Source: Spirochaetota bacterium (GTDB taxonomy: Bacteria; Spirochaetota; Spirochaetia; Treponematales; UBA12059). From it: a stretch of DNA of 64,000 bases. Both the position numbers and the translations under genes were made by a program. Below, one piece after another: positions 5,537 through 35,427 of the stretch. Location of the stretch: the NCBI GenBank assembly GCA_029547205.1, contig JAKPPT010000132.1, positions 1 through 64,000 on the forward strand, given 5' to 3'. Below the pieces are notes generated by a model that saw only the letters and a list, made by a program, of their open reading frames with translations, was not told the origin of the DNA and searched no databases. Within the stretch, counting starts at the first letter, position 1, and the number at the start of each line of letters is the position of its first letter.

Positions 5537-6784
5537 ATGAGTTCTCGCGTAGTTTTACAATCATATTTTCCAGCATTACAAGAAAAAAATTTCCGAATCT
5601 ATTGGATTGGTCAATGTGTATCGCTTATTGGTACATGGATGCAAAATGTAGGACAATCGTGGCTTGTACTGGAACTTACTGGTTCTGCTCAAAAGTTGAG
5701 TATTATCAGTGCCTTGCAGTTTTTTCCCATGATGCTGTTTTCTGCATTTGCAGGTCCAATTATCGACGCTTTTCCTAAAAAAAAGATTTTGTTATTCACA
5801 CAAACAGGTCTTGCAGTACTTGCCATGCTGCTTGCAATACTAACATGGACAAAGCTCATTCAATACTGGATGGTAGTCATACTCGCTCTATTACTTGGTT
5901 TTGTACAACTCATTGATAATCCCACGAGACATGCTTTTGTTATTGAACTTTCTGGTAAAGAGGCATTGACTAATGCGGTTGCACTCAACTCTGCAGCATT
6001 CAATTTAGCCCGAATGGCAGGACCAGCAGTAGCAGGAATTTTAATCGAAATAATTGGCACAGGTTCTTGCTTTTTTTTAAACAGTATTTCTTTTGTTGCA
6101 GTAATTATAGCGCTTCTCAATGTAACCGTTCAAACACATGCGTCTATAAAAAAACCAGAATCACTTAAAGAAATAGTATTACAAACAAAAGATGGTGTTA
6201 TCTATACTTTACGCAATAAAAATATTCTAATACCGCTGTTACTTCTTGGAATAATTAGCCTTGCAATCATAAACTACAATATTATGGTTCCTACATTTGC
6301 CAAGAATGTTTTGCAAAGAACTGCTTCAGGATATGGCTTTTTAATGACATCGCTTGGACTCGGTTCATTTGCTGCAGCACTCTCGCTTGCAGTACACAGT
6401 AAAACTAAACCATCATGGTTTCGCTTATATGGAGGAGCAGCAGGATTGAGTATTGCGTACATAGTATTAAGTTTACAACACAGTTATACTCTCAGTATCA
6501 TATTATTAGCTTTTATAGGATTTTGCACCATTTCACTTTCGACATCAACTAATGCAATATTGCAGCTTGAATCGGATAATGCTCATCGTGGCAGAGTAAT
6601 GAGTCTATACATGCTCATTTTTGGAGGCGTAACACCAATTGGAGCTCTTTACTGTGGAACGCTCATTGAACATTTTGGCATACCCACATACCTTCAGGTT
6701 TCTGGGAGTATCGGTATTGCAGCATCTATTGTAGCAGTTATTTTGAGTATGGTATTTTCAAAGCCTGTCTGTAAGAGCAACTGA
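5537..6784 (+). CDS. Major facilitator superfamily exporter, EntS-like
   Basis: A 415-residue protein with about 12 hydrophobic helices. The N-terminus (FRIYWIGQCVSLIGTWMQ) is the hallmark of the MFS_3/EntS-type branch, which exports siderophores, drugs or other small molecules using the proton gradient. The NPTRHAFVIEL segment in the cytoplasmic loop is also typical. The substrate cannot be read from sequence. It stands alone and its 3' end overlaps the convergent gene by 27 bases. Confidence 0.9.
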   Translation: MSSRVVLQSYFPALQEKNFRIYWIGQCVSLIGTWMQNVGQSWLVLELTGSAQKLSIISALQFFPMMLFSAFAGPIIDAFPKKKILLFTQTGLAVLAMLLAILTWTKLIQYWMVVILALLLGFVQLIDNPTRHAFVIELSGKEALTNAVALNSAAFNLARMAGPAVAGILIEIIGTGSCFFLNSISFVAVIIALLNVTVQTHASIKKPESLKEIVLQTKDGVIYTLRNKNILIPLLLLGIISLAIINYNIMVPTFAKNVLQRTASGYGFLMTSLGLGSFAAALSLAVHSKTKPSWFRLYGGAAGLSIAYIVLSLQHSYTLSIILLAFIGFCTISLSTSTNAILQLESDNAHRGRVMSLYMLIFGGVTPIGALYCGTLIEHFGIPTYLQVSGSIGIAASIVAVILSMVFSKPVCKSN

Positions 6785-27593: not shown

Positions 27594-28274
27594 ATGAAAT
27601 TAAAGAATCGGGTATGTGTAATACTTTCAGTTATTCTGTTTTTTTCATGCACTTATGAAATGAATGATTTCAGCCGGCATAGCGCTACCATAGCGGTATG
27701 GAATCAATCAGATACAGACATCCTCCTTGATATGTCACTATCCAAACAGAACACATATCCACCATTCGAATATGACACAATCGAAGACCAAATACTGCAA
27801 AAACAAAAATGGTCTACTGTTTCTTATACATGGATACCCGGTAAGTACACATTCAGGTATTTTGATACACCCCTTGATCTTACTATGGTATTTTATACTA
27901 AATGTACCGTTCATTCAGAGGAAAAGAATTTCTCGGAATCTTATGAAATTATGATTCACCTGACCAAAGGAAGAAGGTCCGAGATGCACATACTTGATTC
28001 ACCAGTAAAAAGATACTACTCTCCTGAAGAATTCAGCGATTTGCTTTCCCTCATTACGGATCCGGATGATAAAGCGTTATTGACGAACGATTTTTCCTAT
28101 AGTGAATATGAAAACGAATGGAGTCTAAATATTCCCAGCTGGAATTATGCCTCATTCAAACAGCATCTCGACTCAGTGCTCATTCCATTATTAACCAAAT
28201 ATAACCTTGACACCAAGCGCTTCCTGATATCGTACTTGTCGAGTGAGCCGATTATTCCCATAACCTATGAATAA
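27594..28274 (+). CDS. Predicted lipoprotein of unknown function
   Basis: 226 residues beginning MKLKNRVCVILSVILFFSC; the LFFSC site fits the loose spirochaetal lipobox, so the mature protein would be lipid-anchored at Cys19. The next ~90 residues look like a small beta-sandwich, the rest is helical. I recognise no family. AAAGGAA ribosome site. It diverges from the buk operon and is followed by an inverted-repeat element and a gene relic, i.e. accessory territory. Confidence 0.75.
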   Translation: MKLKNRVCVILSVILFFSCTYEMNDFSRHSATIAVWNQSDTDILLDMSLSKQNTYPPFEYDTIEDQILQKQKWSTVSYTWIPGKYTFRYFDTPLDLTMVFYTKCTVHSEEKNFSESYEIMIHLTKGRRSEMHILDSPVKRYYSPEEFSDLLSLITDPDDKALLTNDFSYSEYENEWSLNIPSWNYASFKQHLDSVLIPLLTKYNLDTKRFLISYLSSEPIIPITYE

Positions 28275-30057: not shown

Positions 30058-30076
30058 TGTTGCAGTACCTGCAACA
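30058..30076. promoter_or_regulatory. Palindrome, candidate operator copy 1
   Basis: TGTTGCAG-TAC-CTGCAACA is a perfect inverted repeat with 8-base arms just after the WYL regulator gene. Its core GCAGTACCTGC recurs at 30253. Confidence 0.45.
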
Positions 30077-30252: not shown

Positions 30253-30263
30253 GCAGTACCTGC
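30253..30263. promoter_or_regulatory. Palindrome, candidate operator copy 2
   Basis: GCAGTACCTGC repeats the core of the palindrome at 30058, 78 bases before the ATG of the WYL-transglutaminase gene. Paired sites on both sides of a promoter region suggest control by the WYL regulator. Confidence 0.4.
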
Positions 30264-30340
30264 AGACCCTTGTTTGCGATTATCCGGACTGTTCATTTTA
30301 AAAAGTATTGATAACCGCACTGCATAACAAGGAGGTTGTT

Positions 30341-31714
30341 ATGGATTGGTTAATCGATGCTCTCTACGAAATTTACTACGTTAACAATAATGGTATAAAG
30401 ACACGGAGAGTTATCCGGGTCATCGAAACCCGAACAATTAAACGCTATGAGACAGTTGTTTATATTCGCGCATTTTGCTATCTGCGGAATGAAGAGCGTA
30501 CCTTTCGCGAGGATAACATTGTCCAGGCCAGACTCATTGCCAAACAGGAAGCGGGAGCAGACTGGGTTGTACCTTCGAGCACTCAAACACACGAAGCAAT
30601 AAGTACCTATAAAGCCGAACCTAAACTTTTATATACTGATAGCACTCTATATAAAGGAAAAAATGATTTCCCCTCCACCACGGTCGAGTCTAAGCCTTCA
30701 CATAGCTATAGAATAGAACATGCGTTTCATAATGCCAATAATATAGAACAAAATAAATCTACGGTTTATGCAAATTCAGGCAAAACAGAACCTGTTGCCA
30801 AAGGCTATGCTGCAGAAACCAGAGTCTCTCCTTACAATTCTGATTACTTTAGCCAGAGGGGCTCGTACAAATATCCACAAGATAGCAACGAACCAATAAA
30901 AAAAATCAAATTATCAAGGATACTTGGAATTGCAACTGTTTTAGGCTTAGTGTTTATCTGGTACCTAAATATTTACGCTCCATCACAAGTAAAAGCAGAA
31001 ACGAAAAAAATAGAGTATGTACCATTTACTACCACTGTTCCAAAACCAACTCCTACCCCCCCGCCTCCTGCATTGGAAGAAGTTAAATTAGGCGGGTTAA
31101 TCTTGCGCATTCATCGAGACAGTAGCGGTACCTGGTACGAAGTCCCGGCACGGGGATATGTGGGGAAAAACAAGAAAGAAGCTATCAAGGCTATCCGGGT
31201 TCCGAACTTTACCAATTATACGGGTATTACAGATACTGCTCTTATAGCGCGGTATCTTGCTGCAGACACTGACAATAATGGCAAACTGAGCTACAGGGAA
31301 CTGGAAAATTTTGCAAAAAACATGCGAACCTATGTAACGTATAAAAGTAACGACATCGCATTACGTCCTGATATCTTTTTAGCAGAAGGAGGCGGTGACT
31401 GTGAGGATTTTGCACTCTATGTCGCGGGACTCTTACGTTTCTGGGGCTGGCAGCCTTACATTGCCTGTTTCGATCCTCCTGTAGGAAGCGGGCACGCAGT
31501 TTGCTTTTCTTATGAAGGCTCTGGAGGTTTCCCGAAAAGCTATAACTGGTACACACTCTCGGGTAAAAAGACATGGGATGGTACACTGCTCCCTGATGGC
31601 AAATACATTCCTATTGATTTTGAATATGTTGGCAAACTTTCCAATGCGGTAGGAGAAGGCTGGGAATTAAGACATATATTTATTCCGGAAAAAATATGGG
31701 GATTAAAAATGTAA
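30341..31714 (+). CDS. WYL-like / membrane / EF-hand / transglutaminase-fold protein
   Basis: 457 residues with an unusual order of parts. Residues ~5-66 look like a short WYL module (EIYYVNNNGIKTRRVIRV; YIRAFCYLRNEERTFREDNI). A polar linker follows to ~190, then one membrane helix (~193-212) and a proline-rich stalk (KPTPTPPPPA). An exact EF-hand calcium loop lies at 309-320 (DTDNNGKLSYRE). Next comes a transglutaminase/cysteine-protease-like fold with Cys354 in GGGDCEDFALY, His385 in GSGHAVCF and Asp426 in YIPIDFE. The enzyme part would face outward and the WYL part inward. AAGGAGG precedes ATG 30341. Function unknown; protein crosslinking or peptide cleavage is possible. Confidence 0.8.
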   Translation: MDWLIDALYEIYYVNNNGIKTRRVIRVIETRTIKRYETVVYIRAFCYLRNEERTFREDNIVQARLIAKQEAGADWVVPSSTQTHEAISTYKAEPKLLYTDSTLYKGKNDFPSTTVESKPSHSYRIEHAFHNANNIEQNKSTVYANSGKTEPVAKGYAAETRVSPYNSDYFSQRGSYKYPQDSNEPIKKIKLSRILGIATVLGLVFIWYLNIYAPSQVKAETKKIEYVPFTTTVPKPTPTPPPPALEEVKLGGLILRIHRDSSGTWYEVPARGYVGKNKKEAIKAIRVPNFTNYTGITDTALIARYLAADTDNNGKLSYRELENFAKNMRTYVTYKSNDIALRPDIFLAEGGGDCEDFALYVAGLLRFWGWQPYIACFDPPVGSGHAVCFSYEGSGGFPKSYNWYTLSGKKTWDGTLLPDGKYIPIDFEYVGKLSNAVGEGWELRHIFIPEKIWGLKM

Positions 31715-31756
31715 CCAATGAGCGCGCAAAAGTAATTGTGCTCCTTTTTGCTGTAT

Positions 31757-34254: not shown

Positions 34255-34411
34255 ACGTACTTCCTTTGTTTCAACAGCACTTGTGTCCCATACTAAGGGA
34301 ATTTTCAGTATATCAAGCTTATATGTTCCATGCAATGCATGCTAGCGTACTATACATCAAGATGCATATCTATACAAAGCGATGCCAGCAATTTTTGTTA
34401 TTACATTTTAT

Positions 34412-34440
34412 TTTACAAGAGTAACTACTCAATTTATAAT
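34412..34440 (+). promoter_or_regulatory. Consensus promoter producing a leaderless message
   Basis: TTTACA (34412-34417), exactly 17 bases, TATAAT (34435-34440), six bases, ATG at 34447. This is the clearest leaderless promoter in the window. Confidence 0.7.
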
Positions 34441-34446
34441 GATGGT

Positions 34447-35427
34447 ATGCGATCTCAATTTATTCTATTTGCACTGTTGTTACTAGGCAATTGGAATGTG
34501 AACAATTCTTCTCTTTATGCACAAAATGCATCTCAGTCATCTACTTCCACCAGTGCAGCACATTCTGCTTCAATTCCAGTTCCTATTAAAGCCGATGCAC
34601 AAACTATTTTTTTATCAAATCCTGATCACTGGCGACAAAAAGCTTTCGAAGTATATCATCTTACTGTCGGTAACAACATTATTGTCATCAAGTTTTCTAG
34701 CTATGCTGAACAGCGAAAGTTCTTTTTTCGACTTACGTATTTTTCCAATCAGGATGACACTGAACACCACATTCAACCGGCATCGTACTATGATGGAATG
34801 CATTCCTATAATGCCAATGATTACAACGCTGAAGAACTTGCTGATTTTTTTAATCAGCTCGCAAAACAGCATATGAATCCAGAACCAGGTGAAGCAGTGC
34901 TTTTGAATATGGCACTTTCATATAAAATTATAAAAAAAACCAATGCAGATTATAAACCGATAGGTGGTGCAATCATCAGTTTTTCTATGGAAACAGAAAT
35001 TGTACAAAGAAAACGGTATCTTGTGCATGAAACCATGCATGGTCTCTTTTACACTGTACCCAAACTGCGCGAAGCAATTTTTGCAACAATTGAAAAGCTC
35101 ACACCAACCGAAAAATATTTTTGGTACTTATTTTTAAAACATAAAGGAGAATTAGATAACCGCCCTGGCTTATCTGGTTATAATATTAATAATAAGGAAC
35201 TTGTAGTTAATGAAATATTTGCTCACGTAATGCAGACAGAACCTGAAGATATGGATGATTATTTTTTTACTATTTATATTCCAAGAATGTTTAAGCTACT
35301 TCCTGAGGAAAAACAATTTCTTGAAAATTTTCTCAACACGAGTAGCTCTATGTTTTATAGTTTACGCTCACAGTTTGCTCAAGCACTGGAAAAGTATTGC
35401 GGTCTAAAAAATGGCATTTTATTTTAG
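34447..35427 (+). CDS. Secreted HExxH protein, putative zinc metallopeptidase
   Basis: 326 residues from MRSQFILFALLLLGNW, a signal peptide likely cut after SSLYAQ. The middle holds HETMH (residues 194-198) inside a helix (KRYLVHETMHGLF), the zinc-peptidase signature, and E256 in NEIFAHVM is a plausible third ligand as in gluzincins. No family name comes to mind. I start at 34447, not at the ATG 117 bases upstream, because a consensus promoter lies between. Probably a periplasmic or outer-face peptidase. Confidence 0.7.
   Translation: MRSQFILFALLLLGNWNVNNSSLYAQNASQSSTSTSAAHSASIPVPIKADAQTIFLSNPDHWRQKAFEVYHLTVGNNIIVIKFSSYAEQRKFFFRLTYFSNQDDTEHHIQPASYYDGMHSYNANDYNAEELADFFNQLAKQHMNPEPGEAVLLNMALSYKIIKKTNADYKPIGGAIISFSMETEIVQRKRYLVHETMHGLFYTVPKLREAIFATIEKLTPTEKYFWYLFLKHKGELDNRPGLSGYNINNKELVVNEIFAHVMQTEPEDMDDYFFTIYIPRMFKLLPEEKQFLENFLNTSSSMFYSLRSQFAQALEKYCGLKNGILF

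Follow-up and report, generated by a model that had tools for sequence, protein, structure and literature searches.

What does a WYL domain do when it is tied to a membrane? WYL domains are the nucleic-acid-responsive part of transcription factors and nucleases, and the question is raised by one gene in a stretch of 64,000 nucleotides from a Spirochaetota bacterium (assembly GCA_029547205.1, contig JAKPPT010000132.1, positions 1 to 64,000; hereafter the window). The gene at 30341-31714 encodes a protein in which a WYL domain is followed by a linker, a membrane helix, a proline-rich stalk, an EF-hand and an enzyme of the transglutaminase fold. This order had been proposed from the DNA letters alone (the original prediction), and every residue named there, from the EF-hand loop at 309-320 to Cys354, His385 and Asp426, was located in the open reading frame (ORF). 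We find that the gene product is a real, conserved spirochaete protein with WYL and LapG-type folds and with conserved ligand-type and catalytic-type residues, and that the family shows genetic coupling to an activator of the RtcR-like CARF-AAA-sigma54 type. The protein may have the cell envelope as its target when the cell is infected. The coordinates of all features are collected in Table 1, and genomes (G), contigs (C) and loci (L) are cited by our own labels, G000 being the genome of the window.

The window protein alone gave sub-threshold Pfam matches for WYL (0.018, with a score of 15.5 bits against a cut-off of 21.8), EF-hand (0.011) and Transglut_core (0.028), and an NCBIfam search with it returned no family. 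Because the single-sequence matches were weak for all three modules, relatives were needed to exclude mere pattern-spotting. A scan of genome contigs with the window protein alone gave no matches, whereas an alignment of enzyme domains did find relatives. The protein search covered 99 related genomes and showed that further genera of the family also encode this protein. The set was extended with the enzyme-domain profile, which was run against approximately 85,000 species genomes and, after these, against a class sample of 395 genomes. The full domain order was recovered, with identities of 30-50%, in complete proteins from G006, G017, G019, G022, G453, G463, G509, G544, G561 and G585, which together with G000 makes 11 genomes, and G509 carries two complete copies of 395 and 620 residues. 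Their occurrence in ten other genomes excludes a chance join, an assembly artefact or a frameshift fusion, and the predicted fusion of WYL to enzyme is therefore real and conserved in spirochaetes. All relatives with a database name come from uncultured spirochaetes. Identity to the window protein is 40-50% within its own family and 33-38%, for the enzyme domain, in more distant members; the length of the linker varies. The strand opposite 30341-31714 holds no long competing ORF.

Fold matching of the full-length model against the PDB indicates what the N-terminal module is. The prediction was poor overall (predicted local distance difference test, pLDDT, 57) yet sufficient for fold matching of this part: WYL proteins (PafBC, CapW, BrxR and DriD) take all of the first 19 places among the PDB matches, and residues 1-70 of the model adopt the WYL fold as had been supposed. 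The PADLOC model for RT-associated WYL proteins matches the window protein itself at 2.1e-10, and Pfam WYL matches in the relatives reach 1.6e-10. A profile built from 11 family WYL domains matches PafBC at 1.8e-11 and the WYL domain of an AAA-family ATPase (8bnv) at 2.3e-9, and a profile-profile comparison with WYL domains of helix-turn-helix (HTH) proteins by hhalign gave 97.9%. Binding of single-stranded DNA by PafB requires R181, Y196, R204, R208, R211 and R214 (PMC11804915). At the first five of these positions the family has R23, Y41, R49, R53 and R56, none of which varies among the 11 members; this mapping follows the family-profile alignments to PafBC and is approximate for R181. The position of R214 is occupied by arginine in nine of the 11, by histidine in one and by Asn59 in the window protein. 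A Pfam scan of the window protein detected neither an N-terminal HTH nor a C-terminal WCX domain, unlike BrxR, CapW and PafBC.

The C-terminal domain was modeled with much higher confidence. The AlphaFold model of residues 241-457, based on 13 sequences, has a pLDDT of 94.7 and a predicted template modelling score of 0.90. Its best structural match is LapG (Foldseek, 2e-4; Z 10.0; root mean square deviation of 3.5 over 132 residues), and in the stretch L-x-P-x-x-F-L-x-x-GGGDCEDFA identity to LapG reaches 58% over 24 residues. Six residues, D353, C354, E355, D356, H385 and D426, are invariant in the 13 aligned enzyme domains. In the model, a helix begins at Cys354 and a strand at His385, while Asp426 closes a strand. 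These are the canonical places for the fold, with the three residues in the papain-like order, so that the proposed Cys/His/Asp arrangement appears sound when judged by secondary-structure position. The hhalign alignment of the enzyme profile with LapG covered the nucleophile motif only, and the equivalence of His and Asp to those of LapG thus relies on fold position. The curated Peptidase C93 model scored the family at 0.095 to 0.24, below a family match, and picked up one of the 13 members at E 0.095. The enzyme had been described as transglutaminase-type; the fold is indeed that of transglutaminases, but, given the best fold match, the enzyme is better described as nearest to the cysteine protease LapG. 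We tentatively treat it as a LapG-like cysteine peptidase, judging from sequence and model.

The EF-hand loop fits the 12-residue pattern, with oxygen donors at 1, 3, 5 and 12, Gly at 6 (Ala in L065) and a hydrophobic residue at 8, and forms a single hand flanked by two helices (model residues 59-67 and 78-91). Known EF-hand proteins are matched by the family profile down to 3.7e-8. Residues 1 and 12 are invariant among the 13 enzyme domains, and positions 1, 3, 5 and 12 bear oxygen side chains in 12 of them; the sole exception is the secreted, WYL-less protein of G373, which has a one-residue deletion. The domain is probably calcium-binding. In LapG, calcium bound near the active site matters for function (PMC4359373), and by analogy a second site around D353, E355 and D356 is possible.

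Because the window protein has no N-terminal signal and a single hydrophobic helix, because the N-flanks of this helix carry arginine or lysine in the relatives, and because the enzyme-only homologue of G373 (L026/L061) has an N-terminal signal sequence in place of WYL, the N-terminus is probably inside and the C-terminus outside. The family analysis, the models, the signal-bearing homologue and the flanking charge all support the predicted combination of a cytoplasmic WYL domain, one helix and an extracytoplasmic EF-hand and enzyme, which would correspond to a type II single-pass protein of the inner membrane with the enzyme in the periplasm.

In the relatives, the gene is accompanied by an RtcR-like CARF-AAA-HTH activator (PADLOC RtcR_PspF2, 3.7e-115). 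It directly adjoins the gene, usually divergently, in G006, G017, G463, G561 and G585, lies on the same strand 60 bp downstream in G544 and approximately 3 kb away in G019, adjoins the WYL-less homologue in G564, and is represented by a fragment at the contig end in G453. Every one of the 11 genomes that carry a complete gene also encodes the activator, even those in which the two are unlinked (G000, G022 and G509). Among the 395 genomes of the class, the enzyme is found in 15, the activator in 32 and both in nine; nine of the 15 enzyme carriers thus have it compared with 23 of the 380 others (Fisher p 1.7e-7, for related genomes that are not independent). Promoter motifs point in the same direction. 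A sigma54 -24/-12 box with at most three mismatches lies within 110 bp of the start in seven of 12 loci (chance rate ≤0.08 per locus), and the dyad GTAAC-N4-GTTAC, a putative upstream activating sequence (UAS), occurs with at most one mismatch upstream in L060, L062, L064, L065, L121, L122 and L123, in several loci as a tandem pair 21-23 bp apart (approximate spacing; chance rate ≤0.024 per region). The second G509 copy (L121) has the box and the dyads even though the activator is encoded on a different contig, an arrangement suggestive of regulation in trans. From co-occurrence, adjacency and motifs, the family is genetically coupled to the activator, and this coupling is new here.

Several relatives lie near defence genes. 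PADLOC identified BREX genes beside the gene in G006 (brxA, brxC, pglX and pglZ) and G453 (brxA and brxB), and brxABC was recognised by eye near it in G490; BREX adjacency is limited to these three genomes, and the gene is not a regular member of brx/pgl clusters. A UvrD helicase family is present in the loci of G017, G019, G564 and G453, AbiE-type genes were recognised by eye in G019, a MazF-like toxin is found in G561, and the SNF2-type helicase in G509 resembles those of restriction or defence systems. The UvrD-type helicases share an N-terminal region (L078 1-595, L080 1-1492, L123 1307-3634 and L128 14125-16272) and adjoin the activator or the WYL enzyme; this family is a candidate defence protein. 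Two homologous small outer-membrane barrel-type proteins with 34% identity (L080 4280-4861 and L121 6681-7301), from two genera, also lie near the activator or the WYL enzyme and are perhaps part of the same envelope response.

Our best overall reading, to which we give roughly even chances, is an envelope peptidase, anchored in the membrane and induced by infection or RNA damage, with nucleic acid as the signal that its cytoplasmic WYL domain detects. In most relatives, the gene would be a stress or infection response gene. The activator would sense RNA ends or cyclic nucleotides arising from phage attack or RNA damage, bind the GTAAC-N4-GTTAC sites and turn on the sigma54 promoter before the WYL gene. 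The WYL domain could then respond to single-stranded fragments or to a nucleotide ligand, and the periplasmic part, a putative calcium-binding, LapG-like cysteine peptidase, would act in the envelope, its substrate being a surface protein or the cell wall, and so block phage entry or release or disable the cell. We infer the nucleic-acid ligand, the inside-out control by the WYL domain and the protective role. A more specific proposal, doubtful in its full form, is a switch within one polypeptide: nucleic acid that comes from phage or is damaged, read on the cytoplasmic face by the membrane-tethered WYL domain, would activate a calcium-loaded peptidase across the inner membrane while the CARF-sigma54 sensor controls its synthesis, giving a two-key defence of the envelope (RNA ends and nucleic acid) that BREX and other spirochaete systems would have in common. 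If true, bacteria would link nucleic-acid sensing directly to envelope proteolysis. The CARF-sigma54 association suggests an envelope arm of anti-phage defence, and, because the two keep such constant company and the promoter and UAS can be defined, the regulon of a poorly studied activator class becomes directly testable.

Several observations weigh against a nucleic-acid-sensing envelope peptidase of defence. The window gene has neither a sigma54 box nor a GTAAC-N4-GTTAC dyad upstream, and the 64 kb of the window contain no BREX and no defence neighbour besides an HTH-WYL regulator. The G509:C18 and G005 loci show no visible defence context, and many contigs of the relatives are short. In the window protein, Asn59 stands where PafB has an arginine required for binding single-stranded DNA, the lone EF-hand may be structural, and the related genomes in the co-occurrence test are not independent. 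Part of this fits a housekeeping envelope enzyme, whose WYL domain would be structural or a DNA or RNA tether (e.g. of nucleoid to envelope) and which would trim or crosslink the wall or a surface protein in normal growth, the defence neighbours having hitch-hiked in variable regions: the window copy lies among ordinary metabolic genes (ptb, buk, tdh and arcC), and the G509:C18 copy is alike. Such an enzyme is unlikely, because the gene is patchy in the family (a non-degraded copy in six of 23 genomes), is decayed or partial in G002, G022 (second copy), G453 (second copy), G490 and others, and is tightly coupled to a CARF-sigma54 activator, all of which is atypical of housekeeping.

It is less probable still that the protein is a true transglutaminase or isopeptide-bond former that crosslinks envelope proteins and seals the envelope under stress. 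The fold and the Pfam superfamily agree with it, Transglut_core being matched by all 13 members (best 1.5e-7) and chains of factor XIII and TG2/TG3 by the model at Z 7 to 8, but two kinds of hydrolase, LapG, which itself has GGGDCEDFA, and the pseudomurein endoisopeptidases PeiP/PeiW, rank higher (Z 9 to 10); CPR-C4 also precedes the transglutaminases. An abortive-infection effector that cleaves the wall of its own cell or an essential envelope protein once WYL detects phage nucleic acid has the slimmest prospect, as no cognate immunity gene was seen and signal-driven toxicity is pure inference, notwithstanding the BREX, UvrD, MazF-like and AbiE-type neighbours and a fold related to the wall-lytic PeiW and PeiP.

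LapG (Peptidase_C93 / BTLCP) is a periplasmic, Ca-dependent cysteine protease of the transglutaminase fold that is governed from inside by a second messenger, cyclic di-GMP, through LapD (PMC4359373). The window enzyme shares with it the fold, GGGDCEDFA, the C-H-D triad residues and, as predicted, the periplasmic side and the calcium link. LapG is separate, soluble and dependent on LapD and cyclic di-GMP, whereas the window enzyme is fused via one helix to WYL and has an extra EF-hand. With PafBC, BrxR, CapW and DriD the protein has in common the Sm/SH3-like WYL fold and most of the ligand-type residues; in contrast to them, it lacks HTH and WCX, and its output would be an extracytoplasmic enzyme instead of transcription. 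Known WYL fusions include Cas3, exoRNase, HNH, Mrr, SF1 helicase, AbiGII and TerB (PMC4012209). In these and in the spirochaete DnaQ-WYL, Pif1-type-WYL and TM (transmembrane)-WYL proteins, some of them membrane-anchored, WYL likewise serves as an accessory domain of defence and repair proteins, but none of them carries a cysteine-peptidase or transglutaminase-fold enzyme across the membrane. The domain order had been called unfamiliar from described proteins, and the published list of WYL enzyme fusions is indeed without it (PMC4012209). RtcR-like activators have been linked to restriction, BREX and CoCoNuT superoperons (PMC4012209, PMC11090510); as in RtcR_PspF2 superoperons, the same activator family adjoins defence genes here, whereas the partner gene encodes a putative membrane WYL-peptidase and has a sigma54 promoter and UAS of its own. 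Neither the WYL-transglutaminase-fold fusion nor the RtcR-WYL membrane pair was found in the literature searched, subscription papers lying outside the search, and a 2026 BREX survey leaves transglutaminase unmentioned (PMC12839542).

Spirochaetes also have membrane proteins with a TM helix followed by WYL, alone or with a TerB-like-looking C-terminal region (L038, L040, L041 and L043; L034 and L044), and WYL at the membrane is more widespread than usually described. In many spirochaetes, a DnaQ-type exonuclease that ends in a WYL domain was also recognised by eye (L029-L032, L035-L037, L039, L042 and L046-L052).

The window gene lacks CARF/sigma54 control, and its likely controller is the HTH-WYL regulator directly upstream. 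The element GCAGTACCTGCA has three exact copies genome-wide, two of which lie in the gap between the regulator and the WYL-enzyme gene; these copies and the dyad that holds the first are candidate operators. The sequence TGGCAGTACCTGCA at approximately 30251 was rejected as a sigma54 site, since its spacing is wrong and it is a copy of the repeated GCAGTACCTGCA. Rfam and tRNA scans of the window gave nothing.

Table 1. Features of the WYL-enzyme gene and its upstream region (positions in the window)
Feature	Coordinates	Strand	Basis
WYL-TM-stalk-EF-hand-transglutaminase-fold protein, 457 residues, ATG start	30341..31714	+	ORF, sequence, orthologues
Ribosome-binding site AGGAGG	30330..30335	+	sequence
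WYL domain, residues 1-68	30341..30544	+	profile and fold matches
Low-complexity, disordered cytoplasmic linker, residues 69-193	30545..30919	+	pLDDT ~30
Single transmembrane helix, residues ~194-212	30920..30976	+	sequence and model; hydropathy in relatives
Proline-rich stalk, residues 229-243	31025..31069	+	sequence
EF-hand and transglutaminase-fold domain (~215 residues, 241-457), predicted extracytoplasmic	31061..31711	+	AF2, LapG fold
EF-hand loop DTDNNGKLSYRE, residues 309-320	31265..31300	+	sequence, alignment, profile
D353-C354-E355-D356, nucleophile motif GGGDCEDFA, identical in LapG	31397..31408	+	alignment
Catalytic-type His385, invariant in 13	31493..31495	+	alignment
Catalytic-type Asp426, invariant in 13	31616..31618	+	alignment
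HTH-WYL-WCX regulator, directly upstream, only other WYL protein in the genome	29053..30018	+	
Dyad TGTTGCA-GTACC-TGCAACA, 19 bp, holds repeat copy 1 (GCAGTACCTGCA, 30062-30073), candidate operator	30058..30076	+	
Repeat copy 2, GCAGTACCTGCA	30253..30264	+	
Weak terminator-like hairpin after the gene	31724..31741	+	hairpins in region no more than chance number

The activator of the window's own genome is unlinked to the gene and lies on contig C63 (L134, G000:C63:222000-241999), where it adjoins Cas6, Cmr1, Cas10b, Cmr3, a CARF-adenosine deaminase and a CARF-RelE/DUF2103 protein, which constitute a type III-B CRISPR-Cas locus (L134 9077-19804, including the activator). Tandem GTAAC-N4-GTTAC sites are located upstream of this activator gene. 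Divergent from it is a gene for a Borrelia P13-type membrane protein (L134 8225-8797, minus strand) with a sigma54-like box approximately 49 bp before its start, which takes the place held by the WYL-enzyme gene in relatives. Two further UAS matches, at G000:C149:5608 and C49:33914, are inside coding regions and were taken as chance, a control pattern having given more matches.

The copies of G005 and G482 are truncated by the end of the contig. The decayed second copy of G022 (G022:C166, L081 ~6336-6562) is situated less than 5 kb from the intact one, which suggests duplication and turnover. The enzyme occurs without WYL in two homologues, that of G373, with its signal sequence and broken EF loop, and that of G564. 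The plasmid sequences searched contained no match to the window protein, and a plasmid-borne origin was rejected. Distant GGGDCED matches in archaea, Kiritimatiellales, Poribacteria and others belong to other transglutaminase-fold families without WYL.

Two further ORFs of the window were noted. One of 365 residues (34330-35427) has an HExxH motif (VHETMH), is metallopeptidase-like and overlaps the beginning of the carbamate kinase ORF, which is divergent from it. The other (27594-28274), between butyrate kinase and the WYL regulator, encodes a putative lipoprotein of 226 residues of unknown family.
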